Assembly (NCBI RefSeq): GCF_004421105.1
Contig: NZ_CP038033.1
Span: 825,659-889,658, forward strand
Source of the DNA: Nitrosococcus wardiae
GTDB lineage: Bacteria > Pseudomonadota > Gammaproteobacteria > Nitrosococcales > Nitrosococcaceae
Length of the DNA: 64,000 nt
Direction of reading: 5' to 3'
Part shown: one piece after another, positions 10,545 through 43,896 of the stretch
Position numbering within the stretch: the stretch's first letter is position 1
Layout: the number at the start of each line of letters is the position of its first letter
Notes under the pieces: generated by a model
The model's input: the letters and a program-made list of their open reading frames with translations, nothing else
The model's database searches: none
What the model was told of the DNA's origin: nothing
Program-made: the position numbers and the translations under genes

Positions 10545-10790
10545 TAGCGGATCTCTCAGAGGCTTTTCTCTATTTTAGTCATTGGGGGTACAGAACCTAG
10601 GAAATGATCTATTCAGAACTATCATCCTAAAAACAGCAATTGAAGGTGCCCAAATATACGGCGAGCCCTCTGAATGGCAAGGCATGAAGACGCCGCAGAG
10701 TCCCCCCACAGGGAGAAGCAAAACTGTCAGCGGCTAGAAAATCGGCATTCATCGTACCTTTCCTATGCAATTGGCTGAGGTTACCTTAAT

Positions 10791-11028
10791 AAGTACCTAT
10801 GAATAAAATATGAGGTGTTTTAGGAACGAACCGGTGGTGTTCCGCAAACCCGTTTTTCCTGCCTAAAAAAAGGAGTTTGATGTGCACCCTTTCTGGCGCG
10901 CCCCCTGAGGGGCCTCCTGCGGATGTCCCGATTCGCTCCCGGCGAATCGGGGCGGGGACTTCCCTGTCCCCTGGCTCCACGCCACCGGCTCGCTCCCGGA
11001 ATATTTCAAAACTTTCACTGAGGTACTT
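10791..11028 (+). mobile_element. MITE-like element, long copy
   Basis: 238 bases bounded by AAGTACCT (10791-10798) and its complement AGGTACTT (11021-11028). The inverted similarity continues inward: both ends, read inward, reach a GAGCGAGCCGGTGG-like block after about 30 bases. The same two ends occur, inverted in orientation, at 43621-43737, where about 120 internal bases are absent. No transposase is coded, so a non-autonomous element is inferred. Confidence 0.7.
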
Positions 11029-11077
11029 AGAAGTCAGTCCTACTCACATTTGGAAACTATTGCTCCACGAAGTTGCT

Positions 11078-28999: not shown

Positions 29000-30547
29000 A
29001 TGCAACTGCAACTCAACGCTGCAGAAATTAGCGAACTTATTAGAAAACGTATTGAAGGATTCGAAGCCAAAGTAGAAGCCCGTACGGAAGGTACGGTGGT
29101 CAGTGTGACCGACGGTATTGTCCGTGTCCATGGGCTTGCCGACGTGATGTTTGGTGAAATGATTGAATTCCCAGGCAACACCTACGGTCTTGCCATGAAC
29201 TTAGAGCGGGATTCAGTCGGTGCTGTAGTACTTGGCCCTTACCAACATATCTCTGAAGGTGATCGAGTTAAATGTACTGGCCGGATCTTAGAAGTACCTG
29301 TTGGGGAAGCGTTACTCGGTCGGGTGGTCGATTCCCTGGGTATTCCCATTGATGGGGGTGGGCCCATTGAGGCAGAAGCCACTTCCCCAATTGAAAAGGT
29401 AGCTCCCGGCGTTATTACCCGTCAGTCGGTTTCGCAACCGGTGCAAACGGGTTTGAAAGCCATTGACTCCATGGTGCCTATTGGTCGAGGTCAGCGGGAA
29501 CTGATCATTGGAGACCGCCAAACGGGAAAAACAGCGGTCGCCGTGGATGCCATCATCAATCAGAAAGGCACCGGTATTAAGTGTATTTATGTGGCTATCG
29601 GCCAAAAGGCTTCCTCCGTTGCAGGTGTGGTGCGCAAACTGGAAGAACATGGCGCCCTTGAACATACCATTATCGTTGCCGCAAATGCCTCTGAATCAGC
29701 TGCGCTGCAATTTATTGCGCCCTATGCCGGTTGTGCCATGGGTGAATATTTCCGTGATCGGGGAGAGGATGCCCTGATTATCTATGATGACCTTACCAAA
29801 CAGGCGTGGGCCTATAGACAGGTCTCCTTGTTGCTCCGCCGTCCGCCAGGGCGTGAGGCATTTCCAGGTGACGTATTCTACCTTCATTCCCGGTTATTGG
29901 AGCGAGCTGCCCGGATTAATGCCGAGCAGGTGGAAAAATTAACTGAGGGAAAGGTTAAAGGTAAGACTGGTTCCTTGACTGCCTTACCTATTATTGAGAC
30001 CCAGGCGGGAGACGTCTCTGCTTTTATCCCCACGAATGTTATTTCTATTACGGACGGCCAGATTTTCTTGGAGACGGATCTATTTAACGCGGGTATCCGT
30101 CCAGCTATTAATGCGGGCCTTTCAGTGTCACGGGTGGGGGGATCAGCCCAGACCAAAATCATCAAAAAGTTAGGGGGTGGTGTTCGCCTAGACCTGGCTC
30201 AATATCGCGAGCTTGCAGCCTTTGCTCAGTTTGCCTCCGATTTGGATGAGGCGACCCGGAGGCAGCTTGAGCGTGGCCAGCGAGTGACGGAACTTATGAA
30301 GCAAACTCAATATTCGCCAATGAGCGTAGGTCAAATGGCGGTGTCATTGTTGGCTGCTAATGAAGGCTTTTTGGATGATATTGAGGTCGATAAGATTCAG
30401 GATTTCGAAGCCGCTTTACAGGGCTATATGAAATCCAGCCATCCGGAACTTTTGGACAAGATTACCCAAACCGGTGATTACAGCGACGAGATTGCAGCAG
30501 AGATTAAAGCTGCCATCGAAAATTTCAAAACCACTAGCACGTGGTAA
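29000..30547 (+). CDS. atpA: ATP synthase F1 subunit alpha
   Basis: A 515-residue regulatory nucleotide-binding subunit. The P-loop GDRQTGKT is at 171-178, and the family signature [14 protein letters not shown] is near 375. The N-terminal beta-barrel and C-terminal helical domain are complete. With beta it forms the hexamer of F1. It is the sixth gene of the operon and has a normal length; an alpha with the usual arginine finger region near SVSRVGG is expected to support catalysis in beta. Confidence 0.98.
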
Positions 30548-43595: not shown

Positions 43596-43620
43596 CGTCC
43601 TTTAACTCCTTCAATCAGTT

Positions 43621-43737
43621 AAGTATCTTAGTAAAAGTTTTGAAGTATTCCTGGGGCGATCCGGTGGTGTGGAGCTAGGGGACAGGGAACAGCACCCGCT
43701 CGCTCCTAAAACACCTCATATTTTTTCATAGGTACTT
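43621..43737 (-). mobile_element. MITE-like element, short copy
   Basis: 117 bases whose ends, read on the minus strand, match both ends of the element at 10791-11028. These include AAGTACCTATGAA at one end and CACCACCGGATCGCC plus CTTCAAAACTTTTACT at the other. About 120 internal bases of the long copy are missing, with the junction at TTCC. It lies 25 bases from the protease gene start and 160 from gcvT, so it occupies their divergent promoter region. Confidence 0.7.
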
Positions 43738-43896
43738 ACCTTGGCGTTAAATCCGCTTTTTATTGCCGCCTGCAAAACTATTTGCTGTCAGCTTTTACGC
43801 GGAGGTGATGCCATGAATAGCAGCGGTTGTGGGAAGATAGCCTTCCATCCCATTCTGGGCTGTGTCATAGTTAATATACATGAGGAGGAGCTTGTA

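Follow-up and report, generated by a model that had tools for sequence, protein, structure and literature searches.

A MITE family with IS630-like ends and a probably nested, invertible interior in Nitrosococcus

The window analyzed here is a stretch of 64,000 nucleotides (positions 825659-889658) of the single 4,022,640-bp contig of Nitrosococcus wardiae, a marine ammonia-oxidiser, and it holds two copies of a short repeat (Table 1). The long copy is situated between a DUF6513 gene and gyrB and the short copy between a trypsin/PDZ (HtrA-like) protease gene and gcvT, i.e. both where the original prediction had placed two sites with shared ends. The word AAGTACCT occurs five times in the window against 1.23 expected, a number reached in none of 100 shuffles, and three of these occurrences lie inside the two copies (the other two are at 29292 and 60634). 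Terminal inverted repeats, which had also been predicted, are present in a longer and imperfect form of about 30 nt: left and right end are identical at 20 of 30 positions, with the outer TAAGTA identical in the consensus. The inner blocks that had been pointed out are found as well, and are here reinterpreted as the two arms of another inverted repeat that lies further inside. In the long copy, AT-rich ends (GC 0.265 and 0.29) enclose a GC-rich interior (0.646). One minus frame of this copy is open throughout (79 codons), and a 101-aa ORF overlapping it has no Pfam match.

Table 1. Features of the two copies, in window positions
Feature	Position	Strand	Remarks
Long copy	10790..11029	+	240 bp including TA at each end, left end first; orthologous N. 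halophilus site empty, one TA
Left end, 34 nt	10790..10823	+	homologous to IS left (transposase 5') end; score 18, one 3-nt gap; GC 0.265
Inner 15-bp inverted repeat, left arm	10823..10837	+	
Block B, 73-bp multi-hairpin repeat	10880..10952	+	also occurs alone elsewhere
Inner 15-bp inverted repeat, right arm	10982..10996	+	
Right end, 31 nt	10999..11029	+	homologous to IS right end; score 19, family consensus 25/31 identical
Short copy	43620..43738	-	119 bp including TA at each end; orthologous N. halophilus site empty, one TA
TTCC at deletion junction, short copy	43686..43689	-	GGAA on + strand

Further copies in the genome, one of the checks named in the original prediction, are plentiful. 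Queries with the long copy, the short copy and each of the two ends yielded at least 70 match clusters in N. wardiae, a few of which are lone ends or fragments; this number is a minimum, since 40 of 102 candidates were scored in the BLAST search with the long copy and 40 of 82 in that with the short copy, and the clustering left out weak antisense matches and the last match of one BLAST search. At up to three mismatches, a left-end 21-mer had 58 genome matches and a right-end 24-mer had 56, against none for the reversed patterns in either case, so that the family is not a product of chance. Pairing of both ends gave 57 elements, 65-247 bp in length apart from one of 345 bp, with main size classes of 65, ~120, ~166, ~220 and ~240 bp: five elements are of 65 bp, three of 119-127 bp, three of 144-147 bp, 24 of 158-169 bp, one of 182 bp, seven of 219-224 bp and 13 of 232-247 bp, while the one of 345 bp holds a further insert. 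One end is trimmed by at least 3 nt in five of the 57. Divergence from the class consensus averages ~3-7%, a comparison that excludes the copies at 95485, 3583927 and 2927104 as well as the N. halophilus copy L134, which is without a right end. The elements are thus many, short and dispersed, as MITEs are; they are also too short for a transposase gene, which supports the non-autonomous, MITE-like nature suggested from the two window copies.

Some observations concern sequences at the edge of this set. The insert in the 345-bp copy (2927104-2927448) lies inside the core and has ATACCAATTT/AAATTGGTAT ends; it may be a nested copy from a second MITE family. Near 1605049 we found a mini-element of ~93 bp whose outer ends are similar but whose interior is not; its right-end-like sequence resembles the right end of the IS described below. 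Four lone left ends (706565, 808929, 1344924 and 3814459) were considered as ends of an autonomous element and rejected, as the sequence diverges after the left part and no right end could be paired with them in the loci inspected.

A transposase with matching ends had been proposed as another check, and one IS630-family IS of this kind was identified at 3943798-3944872 (1,075 bp; L168:2299-3373). It was found among left-end-like sequences, of which the first 100 places were listed and 12 inspected. The IS encodes a winged-helix segment together with an almost complete DDE_3 domain (positions 1-145 of 146; E 6.5e-31), and was assigned to the IS630 family because of this domain and its TA target. 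The MITE ends match it at its very boundaries, left to left with a score of 18 (one 3-nt gap) and right to right with 19, against 16 and 11 for the cross matches. Identity is 28/34 plus the 3-nt gap on the left and 25/31 on the right, i.e. ~80%, and since it is no higher than this the true source of the ends may be a lost relative of this IS. The IS interrupts hsdS of a type I restriction system, and when its flanks are joined with one TA the hsdS frame is restored. Its transposase is distributed among three frames, the two breaks lying near homopolymers. These breaks may reflect either decay or assembly error, the genome being PacBio-based (PMC4830845).

Other IS630 copies inspected in the four Nitrosococcus genomes were rejected as partners. 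The search gave 63 matches in these genomes and loci were inspected for 30 of them; at the 29 further loci, some of which are overlapping or partial, no matching ends flank a transposase. End scores there do not exceed 13, with maxima of 10-14 over 20 shuffles per locus. The exception is a score of 16 in L187, at some distance from the transposase, which has the look of a decayed end in one of the genomes (G002). The IS630 proteins of N. halophilus are distant from the partner transposase (31% identity for the best of nine matches, 42-43% for shorter ones), so that the MITE copies in this species are without a recognised close partner. Among 77 stretches that matched in a pattern search for relatives of the transposase, none was confirmed.

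Insertion was followed by comparing occupied with empty sites. The joined flanks of 14 N. wardiae insertions were searched against the other three Nitrosococcus genomes, and nine sites, including those of both window copies, could be aligned to N. halophilus. All nine are empty there, with a single TA at the junction in eight and TC in the ninth (3112182). Of the other five, 1305476 gave a 71% match across the junction, and four gave only partial or split matches. N. halophilus has 19 additional bases next to the TA at 3657706, and at 636885 a gap occurs some ten bases from the junction. Conversely, N. wardiae lacks the N. halophilus copy L132: the joined flank aligns there over 122 nt without interruption and reads GA instead of TA. 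Both directions together thereby give ten aligned empty sites, eight of which read a single TA, one TC and one GA, and the target-site duplications that had been proposed as a check are present: TA is duplicated at the target, as by IS630/Tc1 elements, also for the IS in hsdS. Fixation of the copies at orthologous sites had been named as a finding against a mobile element, and the reverse was observed for both window insertions, which are absent from N. halophilus with a single TA each. Two insertions are common to both species (L144/L158 and L142/L011), and together with the absent ones they imply movement both before and after the species split. Beside the insertion at 1216879 stands the short repeat GGCGTGTTAGCGCCGTACCCAGCAAAA, of which N. 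halophilus has many further copies.

These data make it very probable that the repeats are a non-autonomous MITE family of IS630/Tc1-mariner type, with IS-homologous ends, movement in trans, TA insertion and a nested passenger interior. The ends are shared with the IS, TA is duplicated, and insertions younger than the species split exist. The outer 34 and 31 nt would constitute IS630-family ends and the binding place for a transposase which, made elsewhere in the genome, would move the element in trans and insert it at TA with duplication of the TA. Hairpin-rich repeats of high copy number could also be REP/BIME-type palindromes mobilised by a RAYT (Y1) transposase. REP/BIME elements are short palindromes that are linked to RAYT transposases and are not known to duplicate their target, nor are long DDE-type IS ends known as a REP feature; as the family shares its long ends with a DDE-type IS and has a duplicated TA, we consider a RAYT origin hardly credible.

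Turning to the interior, a length of exactly 65 nt is found in the five smallest copies, which consist of the 34-nt IS-like left end and the 31-nt IS-like right end. In larger copies a core sits at this end-to-end junction, starting and finishing with the 15-bp inverted repeat and flanked by AGGA (CGGA on the right in the long window copy). The 240-bp form is 73 bp longer than the 166-bp form, which is the length of block B. By a 27-mer, block B has 32 matches in N. wardiae, of which 19 are in paired elements, five beside single-ended copies and eight outside known copies, and 39 matches in N. halophilus, of which only four are at located MITE copies and 35 outside. On account of these outside matches, of which three were inspected in N. 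wardiae and about a dozen in N. halophilus, we regard block B as a repeat family of its own. The interior is not IS-like and contains a separate repeat: it would be passenger DNA, made up of a palindromic core with the inner inverted repeat and, in the 240-bp form, the hairpin repeat block B nested in that core. The 240-bp form is accordingly best read as the 166-bp form with a nested block B.

Block B comprises about four hairpins (free copies are e.g. L266-L278 in N. halophilus and L279-L281 in N. wardiae). By eye, some differences between its copies are paired, e.g. CCTCC..GGAGG versus CATCC..GGATG. Several copies share flanks such as CCTTATTG...CCGGCCTAC, forming a larger composite repeat.

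How the size series arose can be argued in two directions. The long and short window copies differ by 120 bp, bounded by the TTCC tetramers at 10840 and 10960 of the long copy (a third TTCC is at 10856), which agrees with the internal difference of about 120 bases and the TTCC junction originally predicted. The short copy fits a 120-bp deletion between TTCC repeats, and its interpretation as an internal-deletion derivative was to that extent right. A 120-bp form with the same TTCC junction is also found at other N. halophilus sites (L138 and L140), which means either a moving subfamily or recurrent deletion. From here it is a short step to the proposal that the whole series was generated by internal deletion only, from one long element and with the 65-bp copies as the last stage. 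Recombination between the AGGA direct repeats flanking the core would give exactly 65 bp, and the ~220-bp copies are without parts of block B. Decayed copies in the two remaining Nitrosococcus genomes (L282 in G002 and L283 in G003) already hold block B in the same place, and for this reason its loss from a 240-bp form is also conceivable. Against deletion alone, the 65-bp form coincides with the IS-like ends, and the frequent occurrence of block B outside MITEs means that its absence from the 166-bp form needs no deletion. We therefore hold a deletion-only series to be possible but do not favor it; the deletion picture originally suggested is refined in that the series was probably built partly by addition. 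The size classes would then have come about via nested addition together with deletion between short direct repeats, as the junctions suggest.

The core is also found in two orientations. Among the 57 N. wardiae elements it is standard in 49, inverted in two (95485 and 3583927) and absent or undecided in six, and among ten loci checked it is inverted in N. halophilus (L263), G002 (L288) and G003 (L284) too, so that each of the four Nitrosococcus genomes has a few copies with an inverted core. The insertion at 3583927 is shared with N. halophilus L144: the two copies align in their flanks and outer ends but have their cores in opposite orientation, which means that the core has inverted since the common insertion. 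The inner inverted repeat would allow this, the simplest mechanism being recombinational exchange or template switching between its arms. A more far-reaching and tentative reading is that of a three-layer nest with a recurrent flip, in which a 65-bp pair of IS630 ends captured a palindromic core, possibly a mobile hairpin inserted with AGGA duplication, and the core in turn took in block B. In all four species examined the core would then undergo repeated flips between the inner arms, needing no dedicated recombinase, and arm-to-arm template switching would keep the hairpins matched.

Another explanation would be a regulatory element or structured RNA with a function, dispersed as a repeat and with its fold under selection. 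The folding energy of the long window copy is about -111 kcal/mol for both strands (z -7.9 and -8.1; none of 200 shuffles as good), while the short copy folds weakly (z -2.1; seven of 200 shuffles as good). In the alignment of the 166-bp class, with 22 of the 24 N. wardiae copies in the 158-169 bp range (omitting the 158-bp copy and the inverted one) and five from N. halophilus, 95.4% of cells pair versus 94.6% in shuffles, and 11 cells are changed on both sides of a pair versus 3.1 in shuffles, a number reached in none of 500. Eight of these 11 belong to a single helix, a control with a shift of one column still gave six pairs with both-sided change (six cells), and relatedness of the copies can inflate the shuffle test. 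The 240-bp class, with 13 N. wardiae and two N. halophilus copies and without the seven of ~220 bp, shows both-sided change in only four of 73 pairs (covariation term 0.14). Quasi-palindromes are subject to correction by template switching, and since such switching from arm to arm would also give paired changes without a selected function, the covariation is weak support for a selected RNA fold. Moreover, nine insertions are absent from the sister species, and Rfam had no match in the window except two tRNAs. An RNA under selection is an improbable explanation.

Outside N. wardiae, the patterns identified 12 left and 12 right ends in N. halophilus; the elements behind the left ends comprise five of 166 bp, two of 238, two of 120, one of 152, one of 146 and one without a right end. 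Neither end pattern matched in G002 or G003, which do hold decayed copies, found via the core, e.g. L285 in G003 with both ends; pattern searches miss diverged copies such as these. Beyond N. wardiae and N. halophilus, a left-end 22-mer matched in one of 57 other relatives (G036, with three mismatches, no element being evident around the match), and a left-end 26-mer matched only N. wardiae among 369 genomes of the class, a set that does not include N. halophilus. The core had no match in 16 genomes outside the genus, and the family none in viral contigs, plasmid records and a genome-contig collection, from the last of which near records were possibly left out. No name for this element was found in the open-access papers searched. 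We consider this MITE family to be genuine and of IS630 type; the present searches showed it only in Nitrosococcus.

Among nitrifying gammaproteobacteria, the family is a well-resolved example of an IS630-type MITE, for which a second species provides empty sites and one IS is a candidate partner. It is also a natural record of the gain and loss of MITE passengers and of core inversion at a shared insertion. In genome annotation its copies are best listed as mobile elements and, as the evidence stands, not as regulatory RNAs.

Its closest precedent, going by description, is RUP of Streptococcus pneumoniae together with IS630-Spn1. RUP has ends like those of IS630-Spn1, a TA target, ~110 copies and a folded structure, movement in trans has been proposed for it, and it is described as a simple 107-bp AT-rich element (PMC2229807, PMC3049150). 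IS630-like ends, TA, folding and many copies are common to both, whereas the Nitrosococcus family has classes of 65-240 bp, a GC-rich core (0.646) with an inverted repeat of its own, and a nested repeat. A further comparison involves ISNpu3, which is of the Tc1/mariner type. For the cyanobacterial MITE Nezha, mobilisation by an ISNpu3-like IS of the same host has been proposed (PMC3049150). By description, Nezha and the present family are both MITEs with a candidate IS in the same host, and differ in host group. Correia elements/NEMIS, described with an interior of up to 156 bp, 26-bp inverted repeats and TA at the termini, and the modular BOX elements (67-637 bp), for which movement by ISSpn2 has been proposed, have, as described, different ends and another or no partner IS. 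The Nitrosococcus family thus joins a well-known kind of element as a new member, with an unusual interior that is probably nested and occurs in both orientations.
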